Shown piece after piece: positions 2,397-39,606 of a DNA stretch of 40,262 nucleotides. Position numbers and translations under genes: made by a program. Under the pieces are notes generated by a model. It was given only the letters and a program-made list of their open reading frames with translations, was not told the origin of the DNA and did not search any database. Position 1 is the stretch's first letter; every line of letters begins with the position of its first letter. Source of the DNA: a virus; IMG/VR virus record IMGVR_UViG_3300042507_003200, positions 1 through 40,262 of that record, one strand, 5' to 3'.

Positions 2397-2643
2397 TGAG
2401 CACCTCGTCGAGCTTGGCAGCGTACCAGATGGCCTTGCGGTTATCCTCCACCGAGTCAGCTTTCTTGCCCAGGCGCCACTGATACTTGATGACCTGACCG
2501 CGCAGGAAGCCGATGAACTGCTCACGGCCCAGGGCAGCGCGGATGGCATCAATGCACTCGATGCCGTTGTCCGTCTCGGCGTAGTGCGGCGGGTGGTTGA
2601 CCATGTCCTTGACAGGCGTGGCCTTAGTGGTCTTGCGTTGCAT
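2383..2643 (-). CDS. DUF3310 protein (T7 gp1.7-like)
   Basis: The 86-residue protein carries the family signature VNHPPHY followed by GIECID and a helical region (FLRGQVIKYQWRLGKK) typical of DUF3310, the group linked to T7 gp1.7, which has nucleotide kinase activity in T7. The start at 2643 (MQRKTTKAT) has AAGGAG upstream, inside the ThyX gene. Its neighbours, ThyX upstream and several DNA enzymes downstream, agree with a nucleotide role, but kinase activity is inference. Confidence 0.85.
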   Translation of the reverse strand: MQRKTTKATPVKDMVNHPPHYAETDNGIECIDAIRAALGREQFIGFLRGQVIKYQWRLGKKADSVEDNRKAIWYAAKLDEVLNEAE

Positions 2644-3292
2644 CGAGAATCTCCTTGAGTGAGGGCATGACGTGAAGCAGGGCAAGACGGCACATGACCG
2701 CAATCTCCCGGTGCTCCTTCTGGGTGCCGTTGCCTGCACGCAGCTGAATGTAGTGGATCCAGCTCCGTACCGAGCCTGCCATGTACAACCGGCTGGGCGT
2801 CAGGCCCTCGGGCAGCACGGCTCGTGCAACCTCCTTGGCGAGACCGCGCCGCAGCGCCTCGTGGTATGAGTGCATGGCATTGTCAGCCAGGGCGTGCTGC
2901 TCTCGGTTCCACCAGTCCTGCAGGGCGTGGTCGTCGATGTCGATGCTGGCCTGACGGTTCTTGGCATCTTGCAGCCGAGCTTCACGCAGCACCGGCTCAG
3001 CATCGACCTCAGCGTAGCGCTGGCTGAACTCCTGGAAGGAGAAACTGCGGTGGCGCAGGATCTGGCGAGCGATGTCGCGGGTCGTGGTAATCTCGATGAC
3101 CGCATGGGCCATCTCAAACGGCGACCAGTGATGGTTGCGGACGAGGTAGTTCAGCAGACGAGGAGCAGTCTCGTGGTTAGCCTGGTTACTCGGGTTCGAG
3201 ACCCGGGCGCAGTAGGCAACCAGCTCCTCGCCCGTCTGAACGCCTTCCAGCTCCAACGGCTGGGTGAATGCGATCAGACGGACTTGGCTCAT
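2624..3292 (-). CDS. thyX: Flavin-dependent thymidylate synthase ThyX
   Basis: The enzyme methylates dUMP to dTMP using methylene-tetrahydrofolate and FAD. The 222-residue protein has the diagnostic ThyX motif RHRx7S at residues 80-90 (RHRSFSFQEFS), preceded by NHHWSPFEM near 53-61 and followed by the C-terminal RAGNGTQKEHRE substrate-binding segment. The length is normal for the family. The start at 3292 overlaps the preceding stop as ATGA. The phage also encodes a ThyA-family protein at 27919-28701, so true dTMP synthesis is probably assigned to ThyX. Confidence 0.95.
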   Translation of the reverse strand: MSQVRLIAFTQPLELEGVQTGEELVAYCARVSNPSNQANHETAPRLLNYLVRNHHWSPFEMAHAVIEITTTRDIARQILRHRSFSFQEFSQRYAEVDAEPVLREARLQDAKNRQASIDIDDHALQDWWNREQHALADNAMHSYHEALRRGLAKEVARAVLPEGLTPSRLYMAGSVRSWIHYIQLRAGNGTQKEHREIAVMCRLALLHVMPSLKEILDATQDH

Positions 3293-3503: not shown

Positions 3504-4094
3504 TCAGGCCTCCTTAAGAGCGTGAACGACAGCGCGGAAGATGAAGTCTTTGGCCTGCTGTTCCCGCGGCAGCTGGTCAAACGGCACGATGCACGGATGA
3601 GTCTTGGCTTCAGGATCCTTGACTGCGCCGTATACCCAGCCTTCGTCAACCTTCTGCTTCATCCAGCTGATATGGCTGGCTTCGGGGCCGAAGTTACCCA
3701 TGAGATGCAGATCCACACCCATGCGAGCTGACTCACGTTGCCACGCAGGAGCATCTTCCCAGGTGGGTTGGCTATTGTCACCCAACGCTTCGCAGTAAGC
3801 TTTGTTGACCTCGTGGCAGACGCGCGCAATGGCGTCCAGTGGGTGCTTGTTCAGCTGCTCTGCCAACAAGTAGCCTTCCAACTCCCAGATCTTGTCGACG
3901 GCCTTCTCCATCGCATACTGCTCGCCAAGCTCTTTATTGAAGTTGACGGCATTGACACAGGCCGACTCACCACGGACCGTGAAGCCGTTGCGCAGCGTGA
4001 CGTGGGCGATGGTCGTGCGGCCATCTGGCATGATGAAGTACTCGACACCAGCGATCTTCGCTTGGATGTCTTCCTTCGTGACTTTCGTTCGCAT
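3504..4094 (-). CDS. Sf6 gp66/N4 gp49-like domain fused to a RyR domain
   Basis: Residues 1 to about 85 match the small phage family of N4 gp49 / Sf6 gene 66 (VTKEDIQAKI, TLRNGFTVRGESACV, AVDKIWELEGYLL). Residues about 90-195 match the RyR repeat known from ryanodine receptors and bacterial proteins (VNKAYCEALGDNSQPTWEDA, EASHISWMKQKVDEGWVYG, KTHPCIVPFDQLP). The role of this pair in phages is not established; RyR repeats in bacteria are often found with nucleotide-signal or defence genes. AAGGAG precedes ATG 4094. Confidence 0.85.
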   Translation of the reverse strand: MRTKVTKEDIQAKIAGVEYFIMPDGRTTIAHVTLRNGFTVRGESACVNAVNFNKELGEQYAMEKAVDKIWELEGYLLAEQLNKHPLDAIARVCHEVNKAYCEALGDNSQPTWEDAPAWQRESARMGVDLHLMGNFGPEASHISWMKQKVDEGWVYGAVKDPEAKTHPCIVPFDQLPREQQAKDFIFRAVVHALKEA

Positions 4095-8981: not shown

Positions 8982-11045
8982 ATGGCACGTATCAGCCAAG
9001 CTCAGCATCTCGCGAACATCCATGCCGAAGCATTGGCCGAGTTCGACACCATCCAGTCTGCCCTGCGTGACGAGCGACTGCAGTGCCTGCAAGATCGGCG
9101 TTTCTACTCGATCGCAGGGGCCCAATGGGAAGGCGCATTGGGCGAGCAGTTCGAGAACAAGCCGAAGTTCGAGGTCAATAAGATCCACTTGGCCGTCATC
9201 CGCATCATCAATGAGTACCGAAACAACCGCATTACCGTCGACTTCGTCAGCAAGGAAGGCGCTGAGCACGACAAGTTGGCTGACACCTGCGACGGCCTGT
9301 ACCGCGCCGACGAGCAGGACTCGGGCGCCGAGGAGGCTTATGACAACGCCTTTGAGGAGGCAGTTGGTGGCGGCTTCGGCGCGTGGCGGCTTCGTGCGGC
9401 CTATGAGGATGATGAGGATCCGGAGGATGAGCGCCAGCGCATCCGCATCGAGCCCATCTTCGATGCCGACAGCTCGGTGTTCTTCGACCTGGGCGCCAAA
9501 CGCCAAGACAAAGCCGATGCCAAGCGCTGCTTTGTGCTTACCTCGATGGCGCCTGACGTCTACAAGGAGGAGTGGGGTGACGATCCCGCCACGTGGCCGA
9601 AGGAGGTTCACCAATTCGAGTTTGACTGGCTTACGCCGGACGTGGTCTTCGTTGCCGAGTACTACCGCGTTGAGCTGAAGTCTGAGACCGTGCAGATCTG
9701 GCAGGACCTCGACGGTGAGGAGAAGCGCTACACCAACTCTGACTTCGATGAGGATGAGGAGTTGGAAGCTAAGCTCACTGCGGTGGGCACCAAGAAGATC
9801 CGTGAGAAGAAGATCAAGACCCGTCGCGTCCGCAAGTACATCCTGAGTGGTGGCAAGGTGCTCGAGGACTGCGGCTACATCGCCGGCAAGTGCATCCCCA
9901 TCGTGCCCATGTACGGTAAGCGCTGGTTCGTGGACAACATCGAGCGCTGCATGGGTCACGTGCGTCTGGCCAAGGATGCTCAGCGTCTGGCCAACATGCA
10001 GCGCTCGAAGCTCGGTGAACTCAGCGCCTTGAGCTCAGTGGAGAAGCCCATCCTCACTCCGGAGCAGGTGGCTGGCCATCAGCTGATGTGGTCTGAGGAC
10101 AACATCAAGAACTACCCATACCTGCTGGTCAACCCCATCACCGATGCCAATGGGAACCAGATGGCTTCAGGTCCGATTGGTTACACCAAGCCGCCTGCCA
10201 TTCCGCCTGCCATGGCAGCGCTGTTGCAGATCACAGAGCAGGATATGCAAGACCTCCTGGGCAACCAGCAGGCTGGTGAGCAGCTGCAGCCGAACATCAG
10301 CGGCAAGGCTGTTGAGCTGATCCAGAACAAGCTGGACATGCAGACATTCATCTACATGAGCAACATGGCCAAAGCAATCAAGCGCAGCGGCGAGATCTGG
10401 TTGAGCATGGCCAAGGACGTGTTGGTCGAGGACGGGCGCAAGATGAAGTTCGTCGGTTCACAAGGCGAGATCAAGTCCGTGGAGCTGCGCCGCCCAGTTG
10501 TGGGAGAGGAGGGCGAGACCGAGGTGGAGAACGACCTGGCCGAGGCCAAGTTCGACGTGGCTGTGGAGGTTGGGCCGTCCAGCTCCAGCAAGCGGGCCGC
10601 TACCGTGCGCGCTTTGACCGGCATGACCTCGATTACAGACGACCCGGAGACCCGTCAGGTGCTTGGCGCCATGACCATGATGAACATGGAAGGCGAGGGT
10701 ATCAGCGAGGTCCGTGACTATTTCCGCAAGAAGCTCTTGAAGATGGGCGTGGTCAAACCAACTGAGGACGAGGCCCAGCAGCTGGCCGAGGCAGTGGCTA
10801 GCGCCAAGCCTGATCCCAACACGGTGTACTTGGAGGCCGCGGCAGAAGAGGCCCAGGCCAACGCCACTCAGGCCCGCGCCAAGACCGTGCTGACGGTGGC
10901 CCAGGCTGAAGAAACCAAGGCCAAGACGATCAAGACCATGGCTGATGTGGATGCCTCGGAGCAGCAGCAAGCCATGGAGGTCATCCAGACGTTCGGAACC
11001 GGTGTGGAACCGGCGCCTATATCACAAATTCCAGCTTCACAGTAA
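8982..11045 (+). CDS. Portal protein, P22 gp1-like
   Basis: At 687 residues it is close to P22 portal (725). It forms the ring through which DNA enters and leaves. The sequence has a mixed alpha/beta body and a long alanine, glutamine and glutamate-rich helical C-terminus (EAAAEEAQANATQARAKTVL), like the barrel region of P22-type portals. The position between terminase and scaffold is canonical. The start ATG 8982 directly follows the terminase stop, with AAAGG upstream. Confidence 0.92.
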   Translation: MARISQAQHLANIHAEALAEFDTIQSALRDERLQCLQDRRFYSIAGAQWEGALGEQFENKPKFEVNKIHLAVIRIINEYRNNRITVDFVSKEGAEHDKLADTCDGLYRADEQDSGAEEAYDNAFEEAVGGGFGAWRLRAAYEDDEDPEDERQRIRIEPIFDADSSVFFDLGAKRQDKADAKRCFVLTSMAPDVYKEEWGDDPATWPKEVHQFEFDWLTPDVVFVAEYYRVELKSETVQIWQDLDGEEKRYTNSDFDEDEELEAKLTAVGTKKIREKKIKTRRVRKYILSGGKVLEDCGYIAGKCIPIVPMYGKRWFVDNIERCMGHVRLAKDAQRLANMQRSKLGELSALSSVEKPILTPEQVAGHQLMWSEDNIKNYPYLLVNPITDANGNQMASGPIGYTKPPAIPPAMAALLQITEQDMQDLLGNQQAGEQLQPNISGKAVELIQNKLDMQTFIYMSNMAKAIKRSGEIWLSMAKDVLVEDGRKMKFVGSQGEIKSVELRRPVVGEEGETEVENDLAEAKFDVAVEVGPSSSSKRAATVRALTGMTSITDDPETRQVLGAMTMMNMEGEGISEVRDYFRKKLLKMGVVKPTEDEAQQLAEAVASAKPDPNTVYLEAAAEEAQANATQARAKTVLTVAQAEETKAKTIKTMADVDASEQQQAMEVIQTFGTGVEPAPISQIPASQ

Positions 11046-27918: not shown

Positions 27919-28701
27919 TTACAGCTCCCACCAGCGACGAATATCACCTGGCCGGCTGTCACGCAGGACCTTAAGCTCCGTCATCAGGAACTGTGGATCG
28001 TTCCAGAGCAGCTTCGGCGTGTCAGGTTGCTCGAGCACCTGGCTGCCGAGGCACAACTTGGCGTCGTCCCAGTTGCTCTCATACAGGTGGCTGCTGGCCG
28101 CCGTCAGGAACAGTTGGCCAGGCGCCACGGCGTCGGCAGTCAGGCGATGCTCATTCAGCAGCCCACACACGAGGTGGCTGAGCATGCTGAAGTTGAAGAC
28201 GTCGTACGGCACGCCCAGCCACGCATCCGAGGAACGCATGAAGACGTGGCAGTTCAGCTTGTGCTGGCGGATGTTGAAGAAGATGGCCACCGTGCAGGGC
28301 ACGTCTTTGGTCTGAGGCGGGCATTCACGCCAGATGGTCAGACCGGCTTGACGACTGTCCTCGTCGACCTGCAGCTTCTCGATGATGTACGGCAGCTGAG
28401 CCACGATCTTGGGGCCGTAGGCACCGAAGAAGCGCTCGCCATCGTCGGAGAAGTCAGCGATGCGGCTGTTGTACGGTGCGATCGTCTCCACCCGGTCGTC
28501 GCCAGACAGGATCCAGAACGCCTCGGCCACCATGAACTTGAAGCTCAGACTGCGGTCAGGCACGCGGAGCACAGGCTTACGCATGTCCACCACGATTGTG
28601 CGTTGGGGAATCTCGCGGGTCATCTTGCCGCGTGGCGCTACGCAGTCGCCGTTGGTCAAGATGTCGTTGAGGGCTTGAAGCCAGATTCGTGAAAAGTCCA
28701 T
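27919..28701 (-). CDS. Thymidylate-synthase-family enzyme, predicted dCMP hydroxymethylase or methylase
   Basis: The 260-residue protein has the ThyA fold signatures: E60 in EAFWILSGDD, R117 in DEDSRQ, catalytic C136 in DVPCTV, RSSDAWLGVPYDV at 156-168 and HLY at 205-207. At position 167 it has Asp where ThyA has the Asn (E. coli N177) that selects dUMP; phage dCMP hydroxymethylase (T4 gp42) has Asp there. The segment equivalent to the TS tryptophan 80 has no Trp. So dCMP is the likely substrate. The phage already has ThyX. GGAGG precedes ATG 28701. Confidence 0.85.
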   Translation of the reverse strand: MDFSRIWLQALNDILTNGDCVAPRGKMTREIPQRTIVVDMRKPVLRVPDRSLSFKFMVAEAFWILSGDDRVETIAPYNSRIADFSDDGERFFGAYGPKIVAQLPYIIEKLQVDEDSRQAGLTIWRECPPQTKDVPCTVAIFFNIRQHKLNCHVFMRSSDAWLGVPYDVFNFSMLSHLVCGLLNEHRLTADAVAPGQLFLTAASSHLYESNWDDAKLCLGSQVLEQPDTPKLLWNDPQFLMTELKVLRDSRPGDIRRWWEL

Positions 28702-28710
28702 TTGATCCTC

Positions 28711-29625
28711 CTAGATCAGATCCAGCAGCGGGTAACGCTGCTTGGCATTGAAGCGCTTGAACGCTTGGGGATGGGGCACAGTGGCCGCCGTGATTTTCAA
28801 CCGGTACAGCTGCTCGTAGGCCTTATTGCCCAGAGCCACGACGCGCTCGGGATTGAGGTTATGGAGCACGGACAGATCCTGATCGGCGTTCAACCACAGC
28901 ACCTGGTCTTCGCCCACGTCGACAGCATCCAGCTGGTCGGCAAGCCACTGACTGCAGCCCTCACCACTGAATGAGGCGAAGGGCCACTGATACCAGGCAT
29001 CGTTGTCCTTGCGCTCAGCGAACGCCTCACCAATCAGCACGACCCGCGCATCCCAGTTGCCAGCCGAAGCCAGCTCCAGTGGATGCTGCTGGAAGCGCAG
29101 CCGGTCTACTCCAGCGACCAAGTTGTCAGTTGTGAACAGGTCATCGACCTTGGTGTAGTCGTAGACGAGCTCAGGCAGATCGGTGACCTGGTCCGCATAG
29201 AGGTCGTAGACCATCCGCAGCTGGTCCTCGTTGTCCAGCATCTCGAGGTGCTTGCGTGCCATGTACGACAGACGCACCGCTTCCCAGCCTGGCTGGCAGC
29301 GCACGACCACAGCACCGCAGCGCATGGCCAGACGCTCAAGCATCCGCCGGCTGGCGTGAGTCAAGCGGTCCCGGCCCTCACGGAAGGCGATGCCGTAGGG
29401 CATCTCGCTCAACCAGCAGCGATCGAAGACGACGTCTTGGTAGCCCAGCAGCGCAGGCAGCATGGCTTCGACGTAGACGCGGCCCAGGCTCTTCCCCACC
29501 CGGGGGAGGGCGGAGAAGTGGACGTACTTGGCGCCGGTGGCTTCAGCGAAGGCCTGACCAGCAGTGGACTTGCCACCACCGTCCGGACCTTCGAAGATGG
29601 TCAGCTTCTTGCTCACTTGGGCCAT
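28711..29625 (-). CDS. Nucleotide kinase fused to a uracil-DNA-glycosylase-like domain
   Basis: Residues 1 to about 185 form a thymidylate-kinase-like P-loop kinase: Walker A GPDGGGKST at 13-21, DRCWLSE with D68-R69 as in dTMP and deoxynucleoside kinases, and a lid-like YMARKH. Residues about 193-304 resemble the uracil-DNA glycosylase superfamily: LIGEAF at 197-202, PFASFSGEG, VVALGNKAYEQLY at 262-274 and HPQAF at 285-289. It lies between the ThyA-family and MazG-like genes and overlaps the latter by 13 bases. It may phosphorylate a modified dNMP; the second domain's job is unknown. Confidence 0.8.
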   Translation of the reverse strand: MAQVSKKLTIFEGPDGGGKSTAGQAFAEATGAKYVHFSALPRVGKSLGRVYVEAMLPALLGYQDVVFDRCWLSEMPYGIAFREGRDRLTHASRRMLERLAMRCGAVVVRCQPGWEAVRLSYMARKHLEMLDNEDQLRMVYDLYADQVTDLPELVYDYTKVDDLFTTDNLVAGVDRLRFQQHPLELASAGNWDARVVLIGEAFAERKDNDAWYQWPFASFSGEGCSQWLADQLDAVDVGEDQVLWLNADQDLSVLHNLNPERVVALGNKAYEQLYRLKITAATVPHPQAFKRFNAKQRYPLLDLI

Positions 29626-30822: not shown

Positions 30823-31269
30823 TTACCTCTTTCTAAGTGGAGTGCTCAGGGCTCTGCTGACGTCCCATCCGCACTTGATTCGTTGCTGAAATTGATTGCT
30901 TGGTACTACGCATCTTGGATCAGATCCCCATTCCGCAGCGCACTTCGTTTCGCCGTTAAATGTAAGCATCACGTTGTTGGATTTGTTCCAACAATTTTGC
31001 TGGCGGGTGACAAACCGGCAGTTATCCGGGCCGTAGCCTTTACGGTTGTCGATGCGGTCAATGTCCAATCCTGATTTGTAATCATTGGCCAAAGCCCACT
31101 TAACAAACTCAGAGCAACCACGACGGCCTGCCCATCGAGCGTCCAGTGAAATTCCTTTGGCGCCGTAGTCCTTGTAAGATCTGGATTTAGGATAGTTGCA
31201 GCGTGCATTGATTCCGCTCCAAAGAGACTGGAGCTTAACAACCGTATCTACAACTTGATCCGGGTCCAT
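30823..31269 (-). CDS. HNH endonuclease (homing type)
   Basis: The 148-residue protein fits phage HNH homing endonucleases: LWSGINARCNYPKSRSYKDY, GAKGISLDARW, then LDIDRIDNRKGYGPDNCRFV and TRQQNCWNKSN. It is a free-standing gene in the operon, starting at ATG 31269 on the upstream stop (TGATG). Its bases look richer in A+T and its codons less biased than its neighbours, a sign of recent arrival. It may cut related phages lacking it. Confidence 0.87.
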   Translation of the reverse strand: MDPDQVVDTVVKLQSLWSGINARCNYPKSRSYKDYGAKGISLDARWAGRRGCSEFVKWALANDYKSGLDIDRIDNRKGYGPDNCRFVTRQQNCWNKSNNVMLTFNGETKCAAEWGSDPRCVVPSNQFQQRIKCGWDVSRALSTPLRKR

Positions 31270-31919
31270 CACTTCACCTTGGCTTCGGGCGGGTTCATGC
31301 CCTGCTTCTTCAGGTGGTTGCGATACCACTTGACGTAGCCACGTTTCTTCTCGTCCAGGCCGAACTTCTCCTGCACCTTCTCGAAGATCTTGTCGTCGGT
31401 CAGCTTGCCTTCCATGATCAGGTCTTGGAACATCTGGGCAGCCGACTGCTTTTTCTCGCCAGTCTTCTTCGCAGGTGTCTTGACGACCGGATCGATGGCG
31501 CGGCGACCTGCCTTGACGACCTCGGTGGATTTGGTCTTGGCGGCAGTTTTTGCCGGCGCGGCCTTCTTGGTTACGGGCTTGGCGGCAGTCTTCTCGGCGG
31601 CCGCGGCTTTCTTGGTGGTTGCCATTTCTAGCTCCTGTTTACTCACGTTGATGATCTGGCCCAGGTAATCCAAGGCCTCCTTGGTCGCCCCGATGTTCTG
31701 GCTGTAGCTCAGGTAGAGCTGGCAGGCCTTCTCAGCGGGGTATCCTTCCATCGGCGTGAACCGCTGGTCGAATGACTCCGCCGACGTCTTCTGGACTTCG
31801 AGTCCAGTGCTAACGTCGAGCGGAATATACTTGACATGCCCATTGACGCGCTCGACCTGAATGCAGGTGCGACGCTGATGGTCATGGTACGGCATGACGA
31901 CTAAATTCTTCTTGGCCAT
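31269..31919 (-). CDS. Protein with histone H1-like basic linker and shared C-terminal domain
   Basis: Residues 1-98 are a mixed soluble domain; about 99-157 is a lysine-alanine-proline linker (KKAAPAKTAAKTKSTE) like bacterial H1 tails; 159-211 is a helical domain (AAQMFQDLIMEGKLTDDKIF, then KFGLDEKKRGYVKWYRNHLK). The C-terminal domain recurs in the gene at 32274-32747. DNA binding is likely from composition; function is unknown. GGAGAAG precedes ATG 31919. Confidence 0.75.
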   Translation of the reverse strand: MAKKNLVVMPYHDHQRRTCIQVERVNGHVKYIPLDVSTGLEVQKTSAESFDQRFTPMEGYPAEKACQLYLSYSQNIGATKEALDYLGQIINVSKQELEMATTKKAAAAEKTAAKPVTKKAAPAKTAAKTKSTEVVKAGRRAIDPVVKTPAKKTGEKKQSAAQMFQDLIMEGKLTDDKIFEKVQEKFGLDEKKRGYVKWYRNHLKKQGMNPPEAKVK

Positions 31920-39243: not shown

Positions 39244-39606
39244 TTAATGCTTAGGCATACGGTCTGCGATGCGCTGTCGATTGATTAGCAGGTCTGCCTC
39301 AGTGGGTGACCAGCCTTGCAACCAACCTGCTGGCACTGAGACTGCAGGGCACTCAGTATGCTGCGGGCTGTAGCCACGACGAATCATCTCGGCCACTAGC
39401 TGCTTGAAGCGCTGTTGACAGTAGTCGAGGCGGCTATAGAAGAACTTCACATGCCCGGCACCAAGCGTGTACGTGTCAGGAGCTGTGACGCCACCACGCT
39501 TAGCGGCAGCCTCGGCTAGTCTGAACACGCGCGGCAGCTCGCGGTACTCAGCCACCAAGTGCTTCTGATGGAGCTCCTCAACAGGCACACAGTTGATGCG
39601 GGTCAT
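39244..39606 (-). CDS. denV: Pyrimidine dimer DNA glycosylase, T4 endonuclease V (DenV)-like
   Basis: The 120-residue protein starts MTRINCVPVEELHQKHLVAE, then YRELPRV, in register with T4 DenV. The catalytic N-terminal Thr (T2) and Glu (E23) are both present, and TLGAGHVKFFYSRLDYC matches the DNA-binding core. The enzyme removes UV-induced pyrimidine dimers and cuts the strand. It is slightly shorter than T4 DenV (138 residues), lacking the aromatic C-terminus (WYKYYG). It lies two bases after the preceding gene. Confidence 0.93.
   Translation of the reverse strand: MTRINCVPVEELHQKHLVAEYRELPRVFRLAEAAAKRGGVTAPDTYTLGAGHVKFFYSRLDYCQQRFKQLVAEMIRRGYSPQHTECPAVSVPAGWLQGWSPTEADLLINRQRIADRMPKH

Follow-up and report, generated by a model that had tools for sequence, protein, structure and literature searches.

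A thymidylate synthase-like viral gene predicted to encode a dCMP 5-hydroxymethylase

A gene of the thymidylate synthase (ThyA) family, located at 27919..28701 on the minus strand of a single virus record of 40,262 bases (the whole stretch analyzed, here called the window), is predicted to encode a dCMP 5-hydroxymethylase, a reading to which we assign a probability of roughly 0.77. The reading combines observed features, namely the residues, the fold, the gene neighborhood, the presence of ThyX and the lack of a dihydrofolate reductase (DHFR) match, with residue roles and restriction digests of phage AXL3 DNA taken from published papers. Because the active-site residues are those of a cytosine-hydroxymethylating enzyme, in a gene that would ordinarily be labeled a thymidylate synthase, this bacterial virus probably replaces the cytosine of its DNA by a modified base and so escapes host restriction enzymes. 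Phage T4 is known to evade restriction by replacing its cytosine, and the same would hold here for a distinct group of viruses that is widespread. The kind of enzyme is already known; what is added is its clade, a likely mis-annotation in cultured phages and a slot in the gene cassette that comes in two versions.

Active-site residues of the ThyA-like protein

The initial annotation, made from the sequence alone, had placed a ThyA-family gene at exactly these coordinates, and the gene proved to be real: the minus-strand reading frame starts with ATG, encodes 260 amino acids and matches the Pfam profile Thymidylat_synt (PF00303) with an E-value of 7.4e-23, above the curated cut-off. Against the seven NCBIfam thymidylate-synthase models listed the protein scored 15–65 bits, below all of their cut-offs (108–576), and T4 gp42 and the RB69 enzyme likewise fall under the curated cut-offs of these models. 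In the alignment, the C-terminal tail typical of thymidylate synthases is missing, and hydroxymethylases are described as being without this tail (PMC6400193).

The Asp in the motif GVPYDV (residues 163–168) had been proposed to occupy the pyrimidine-binding position, where thymidylate synthases have Asn. The alignments bear this out, with D167 (codon at 28201..28203, minus strand) falling opposite N177 of E. coli ThyA and D179 of T4 gp42. Asp rather than Asn was found here in all 82 distinct sequences of the window family, a count that, like that at position 173, partly reflects how the sequences were retrieved, as WLG..YD, one of two patterns used, includes this Asp; six named phage records among the 82 came by another route. 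The catalytic Cys was also correctly identified, C136 (28294..28296, minus strand) being aligned with C146 of E. coli and C148 of T4. Three residues before it lies D133 (28303..28305, minus strand), which corresponds to L143 of E. coli ThyA and D145 of T4 gp42 and is the residue proposed to activate the hydroxymethyl-forming water. These roles are those described for the T4 enzyme, in which Asp179 recognizes cytosine and Asp145 activates the water that becomes the hydroxyl, with a D145N change abolishing product formation (PMC6400193). The link from the Asn-to-Asp change to dCMP specificity was likewise supported, by the D167 alignments and by published work on cytosine-modifying enzymes (PMC6400193, PMC8670742), and dCMP is well supported as the predicted substrate.

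Six positions (143, 147, 169, 173, 177 and 209 in E. coli numbering) were then compared across four groups, from which identical rows and rows shorter than 150 residues had been removed. Every one of the 82 window-family sequences has D T D G D Y at these positions, the counts at 143, 147, 169 and 209 being independent of retrieval and D133 lying in neither retrieval pattern. The same six residues are found in 56/56 T4-type dCMP hydroxymethylases. On the other hand, the RB69/AfhB group of dCMP hydroxylases has E T N V D F (14/14), the methylases related to Xp12, a set of relatives that does not include Xp12 itself, have N P D G D Y (11/11), the dUMP enzymes of SPO1, Vi01 and PaMx11 have D N D G N Y, and E. 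coli ThyA has L H D G N Y. In thymidylate synthase D169 binds the folate pterin (PMC6400193), and in the MetaGPA study positions 177 and 147 were the two best separators of modified from unmodified contigs (PMC8670742). Judging from these alignments, the informative residues are D133 (T4 D145), T137, D159, G163 and Y207, none of which figured in the initial annotation. The residues on which the initial annotation was based recur in relatives down to 38% identity (MW202510), which indicates that the pattern is no chance event. The six-position table separates five chemistries of the thymidylate synthase fold and could be used for re-annotating phage thymidylate synthases. It also showed that Asn143 and Pro147 accompany Asp177 in 11/11 Xp12-related enzymes, including those of AXL1 (L033), DLP4 (L024) and PaMx28 (L034), a combination that is possibly a mark of dCMP methyltransferases.

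The published signature of hydroxymethylation consists of an Asp three residues before the Cys and a Ser two residues before a Tyr (PMC6400193). The Asp (or Glu) of this signature, equivalent to T4 D145, is present as D133 and throughout the family (82/82), whereas the place of the Ser/Thr (T4 Ser94, two before Tyr96) is taken by Gly93, two before Tyr95, and by Gly in 82/82 family sequences. At the same place SPO1 has Ala and Vi01 has Gly, and the DNA of both phages contains 5hmdU or one of its derivatives (PMC7653180; PMC6449724). Because these two enzymes also lack the Ser, it is not needed in all hydroxymethylases. Given the Gly, however, our claim is one of pyrimidine-hydroxymethylase-like action on dCMP and not of membership in the T4 subfamily. 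A Gln at the phosphate-site Arg127 position likewise counts against the hydroxymethylase reading. In all, the window protein shares with T4 gp42 the six active-site residues, the catalytic Cys, base recognition of the Asp179 type and the lack of a thymidylate synthase tail, but Ser94, Trp82, Val85 and Arg124 of T4 are replaced by Gly, Ile, Phe and Gln, respectively, the overall similarity is low, and queries with T4 glucosyltransferases found no match near the gene.

Loss of Trp80 is not a mark of hydroxymethylation

The initial annotation had also argued that loss of the conserved Trp80 favors a hydroxymethyl over a methyl product. The segment is indeed free of Trp, with Ile at E. coli W80 and Phe at W83, but its value as a mark of hydroxymethylation did not survive comparison. 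Trp80 is retained in 56/56 T4-type enzymes and 11/11 Xp12-related methylases, and also in the Xp15 enzyme linked to a carbamoyltransferase; the RB69 dCMP hydroxylase and the dUMP hydroxymethylases lack it. Since it is kept by T4-type hydroxymethylases and methylases and missing from a hydroxylase and the dUMP enzymes, its loss does not predict the product, and it was rejected as a mark. The hydroxymethyl product class is instead supported through D133 and the accompanying residues, and the alignments support D133 as the better mark. At the W83 position, Phe is found in the window protein and the methylases and Val or Ile in the T4-type enzymes.

Structure, profile scores and phylogeny

A structural model of the protein was predicted from 15 sequences with a mean pLDDT of 84.0 and a pTM of 0.87. 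Residues 71–90, which contain the Trp80 position, were poorly predicted (block means of 57 and 59), and for this reason we make no claim on the shape of this segment. The superposition suggested in the initial annotation was run as a search of a structure library. Among the matches listed, the best was the CMP hydroxymethylase MilA (Foldseek E-value 4.1e-16; Z 23.1, rmsd 2.8 over 249 residues), while thymidylate synthases gave Z of about 20 and the AfhB hydroxylase structures 9iqc and 9iqu gave Z 20.2. T4 gp42 was not among the matches listed, which has no bearing either way. MilA is the best PDB match in sequence as well as in fold and has Asp at both key places in the alignment. It differs in preferring ribonucleotides, in serving mildiomycin secondary metabolism (PMC5175136) and in being only 28–29% identical.

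Whole-protein profile scores were 53.8 bits for the methylase profile, 43.2 for the hydroxylase profile and 32.6 for the T4 profile. This score was discarded as an uninformative classifier; taken alone it counts against a hydroxymethylase, the methylase profile being highest. The phylogeny suggested in the initial annotation did not join the window protein to T4 gp42. The latter was placed with Xp15, apart from the window protein, on a branch of length 10; because long branches meet, its position was not used as evidence. The dUMP hydroxymethylases fell in the sister group of the window clade, with support of 82/70 for both together.

Relatives and the restriction resistance of AXL3 DNA

The best tblastn matches among phage records were MW202621 (61.9% identity), Pseudoxanthomonas phage PW916 (55.4%) and Stenotrophomonas phage AXL3 (55.0%), followed by the Pelagibacter phages HTVC200P (50.5%) and HTVC119P (45.8%), with 2,153 matching records in all. 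MW202621, AXL3 and PW916 are also the three phages nearest to the window by DNA polymerase. Relatives in IMG/VR were collected as 15 loci from a single-protein search and 80 loci kept from 426 confirmed in one scan with alignment A3. The family is thus large, and Stenotrophomonas, Pseudoxanthomonas and Pelagibacter are among the hosts of its phages. A parallel scan for relatives of SPO1 gp29 gave 10 pattern matches, none of which was confirmed. The AXL3 (gp28) and PW916 proteins, at 55% identity, lie in the same cassette order, with the kinase-uracil-DNA-glycosylase (UDG) fusion described below, but they are annotated differently: gp28 as thymidylate synthase (PMC7504290), and the PW916 protein as deoxyuridylate hydroxymethyltransferase. 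In the available text of the PW916 and AXL1 papers, no assignment of gp28 as a cytosine enzyme was found. AXL3, the nearest cultured relative of the replication/modification block, is a siphovirus, while the window encodes a P22-type portal (8982..11045, plus strand). The adjacency of a P22-type portal and an AXL3-like block suggests that this block has been exchanged between unlike virions.

AXL3 DNA was reported to be cut by 2 of 37 enzymes, TasI and Tru1I, and to resist the other 35, the modification being described in that study as unknown (PMC7504290). All 37 enzymes have sites in the AXL3 record; G/C is absent only from those of TasI and Tru1I, and 10 of the 35 resisted enzymes have sites without A/T. 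Eam1105I and AhdI recognize the same site. The 5mC DNA of Xp12 is fully cut by KpnI and AhdI (PMC7653180) and DNA of its relative AXL1 is cut, partially, also by KpnI and Eam1105I (PMC9206674), whereas AXL3 DNA was left uncut by KpnI and Eam1105I despite 13 and 14 sites. SP8 DNA, which contains 5hmdU, is cut by most enzymes (PMC7653180). The AXL3 cutting pattern therefore argues for a modified cytosine other than 5mC. It could fit 5hmC or a further decorated base alike, and a modified G would also be compatible. Deazaguanine was rejected as the source of resistance, as no QueC or TGT match was found in five of five records (the window, AXL3, PW916, MW202621 and MW202510), which leaves other G routes. 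Ten AXL3 reading frames (nine hypothetical and one DUF1643) gave no modification enzyme against Pfam. The support that this phenotype lends to the window gene passes through the 55% identity between the two proteins; conversely, our reading names a particular base and gene as the possible answer to the published puzzle of AXL3 DNA resistance.

Gene neighborhood and proposed pathway

The ThyA-like gene lies in a block of co-directed minus-strand genes, and the occurrence of its neighbors was counted over 80 related IMG/VR loci. On its 3' side, overlapping it by 44 bases, is a dCMP deaminase-like gene (PF00383; 27444..27962, minus strand; matched in 76/80 loci). On the other side follow a dTMP-kinase-like P-loop kinase (about residues 1–178) fused to a UDG-fold domain (about residues 179–304) at 28711..29625 (minus strand; kinase in 54/80 loci, fused in 43), a MazG/PRA-PH-like NTP pyrophosphatase (PF01503; 29613..30014, minus strand; 68/80) and a class I SAM-dependent methyltransferase (PF13489; 30011..30820, minus strand; 60/80). 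The kinase half matched YorR and dTMP kinases in structure searches. The C-terminal half matched Thermotoga UDG by Foldseek alone (1l9g and 1vk2; E-values 8.0e-4 and 8.5e-4) and had no match of weight among PDB sequences; the VIA-align matches listed for the fusion concern its kinase half and are neutral on the UDG-fold domain. Pelagibacter phages and MW202510 have the kinase without this fusion. The slot between the pyrophosphatase and the ThyA-like gene is occupied either by the kinase (54/80) or by a 131-residue protein (19/80; for example L016:5603-5998 and L014:5591-5992) that weakly resembles DUF1599, the "nucleotide modification associated domain 1". The two were never found together (0/80), and seven loci, some of them at contig ends, had neither. 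An HNH endonuclease-like reading frame at 30823..31329 (minus strand), between the methyltransferase and the reading frame at 31269..31919, looks like a recent insertion, because relatives with both neighbors mostly have a gap of about 30–100 bases there.

Domains of thymidylate synthase, PRA-PH and dCMP deaminase co-occur on contigs with modified cytosine in the MetaGPA data, and Asp177 marks those contigs (PMC8670742). The window cassette resembles these and that of Xp15 in combining the three. It differs from Xp15 in lacking a carbamoyltransferase: PF16861 was found in 1/27 records, Xp15 only, and in neither the window nor its relatives, so carbamoylation was rejected. Queries with T4 alpha- and beta-glucosyltransferases and the Xp15 carbamoyltransferase matched 0/80 loci.

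A flavin-dependent thymidylate synthase, ThyX (PF02511, E-value 2.9e-39), is encoded at 2624..3292 on the minus strand, and its profile matched 12/27 records, including the window, AXL3 and PW916. The ThyA-like gene is therefore not needed for dTMP in these three. Methylation of the pyrimidine yields dihydrofolate (DHF) and needs DHFR, whereas hydroxymethylation leaves tetrahydrofolate (THF; PMC6400193). The DHFR profile matched 3/27 records, those of the Xp12 relatives AXL1, DLP4 and PaMx28 (one above the curated cut-off, all three annotated as DHFR), and none in the window family; a DLP4 DHFR query likewise matched 0/80 loci. This absence is weak evidence because a host is expected to have the enzyme and the window record may be incomplete. 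Neither ThyX nor DHFR was found in 7/16 IMG/VR records, several of which are short fragments whose absences prove nothing.

From these observations we infer the substrate, product, flux and kinase substrate of the following scheme. C136 would attack C6 of dCMP, with D167 holding and protonating the cytosine ring; the one-carbon unit would come from methylene-THF, and addition of a D133-activated water to the exocyclic methylene would yield 5-hydroxymethyl-dCMP and THF in place of a methyl group and DHF. With the neighboring genes, a precursor pathway like that of T4 is probably complete. In it, the MazG-like enzyme would lower dCTP and return dCMP, as T4 gp56 hydrolyzes dCTP; the dTMP-kinase-like protein may phosphorylate the modified dCMP, with T4 gp1 as its analogue, which does not account for the 19/80 loci that have the DUF1599-like protein instead; and the phage polymerase would incorporate the modified triphosphate. 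Surplus dCMP would pass to dUMP through the deaminase, and ThyX would make dTMP without consuming reduced folate. Cytosine would in this way be replaced throughout the genome, making the DNA resistant to restriction. An unlikely variant has the kinase-UDG fusion act on DNA, where the UDG fold would grip a flipped hydroxymethylcytosine and the kinase would phosphorylate it as the first step of hypermodification, the DUF1599-like protein representing a second branch. A 5hmdU DNA kinase route known from thymine hypermodification offers an analogue. If this variant were true, two distinct end-product bases would be made from the product of a single base hydroxymethylase.

Alternative activities

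Other members of the fold also act on dCMP. A flavin-linked 5-hydroxylase of the RB69/HY126 AfhB kind, whose 5-hydroxy-dCMP would be destined for direct glycosylation, is improbable for the window gene. Phages with glycosylated 5-hydroxycytosine are described (Lee et al. and Mahler et al. 2025, cited in PMC13390438). The window protein shares with the RB69/AfhB group the fold, the match of 9iqc/9iqu to its model, Asp177, Thr147, the missing Trp80 and a profile score exceeding that for T4. The 14 distinct sequences of the group, in which RB69ORF048c is nearly identical to AfhB, nevertheless differ from the window family at four positions, with E against D at 143, N against D at 169, V against G at 173 and F against Y at 209 (the window residues in 82/82), and no glycosyltransferase was found in the 80 loci with the T4 queries. 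We also assign a small probability to a dCMP methyltransferase like that of Xp12, with 5-methyl-dCMP as its product. The Asn-to-Asp change alone converts ThyA into a dCMP methylase (PMC8670742), close relatives of the fully 5mC phage Xp12 have a related cassette (PMC9206674), and the methylase profile gave the best whole-protein score. Against this, N143 and P147 in 11/11 Xp12-related enzymes, which keep Trp80, are replaced by D133 and T137 in the window protein, the DHFR gene that lies beside the gene in Xp12 relatives is missing from the window family, and AXL3 DNA resists KpnI and Eam1105I, which cut 5mC DNA (PMC7504290, PMC7653180, PMC9206674).

Activity on dUMP is less probable still. That the protein is an ordinary thymidylate synthase, as gp28 is annotated (PMC7504290), would agree with its family-level homology and with an adjoining dCMP deaminase that would supply dUMP, but the Asp at 177, scores below all seven NCBIfam models (as for T4 gp42 and the RB69 enzyme), the missing C-terminal tail and ThyX in the same genome make it very improbable. 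A dUMP hydroxymethylase of the SPO1/Vi01 kind, the activity annotated for the PW916 relative, finds support in the sister-group position of these enzymes (82/70) and in two residues common to the window protein, SPO1 and Vi01: Asp143, and a Gln in place of the phosphate-site Arg127. The three dUMP enzymes examined, however, have N at each of positions 177, 147 and 165, in contrast to D, T and M in 82/82 window-family sequences, and AXL3 DNA resists enzymes with G/C-only sites while the 5hmdU DNA of SP8 is mostly cut (PMC7653180); we regard this activity, too, as highly improbable.

Other genes in the window

Besides the genes described above, the window carries a DNA ligase, a terminase, the P22-like portal and a DNA polymerase. 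A pyrimidine dimer DNA glycosylase (PF03013) is encoded at 39244..39606 (minus strand), and an N4 gp49/Sf6 gp66 domain is joined to a RyR domain at 3504..4094 (minus strand).
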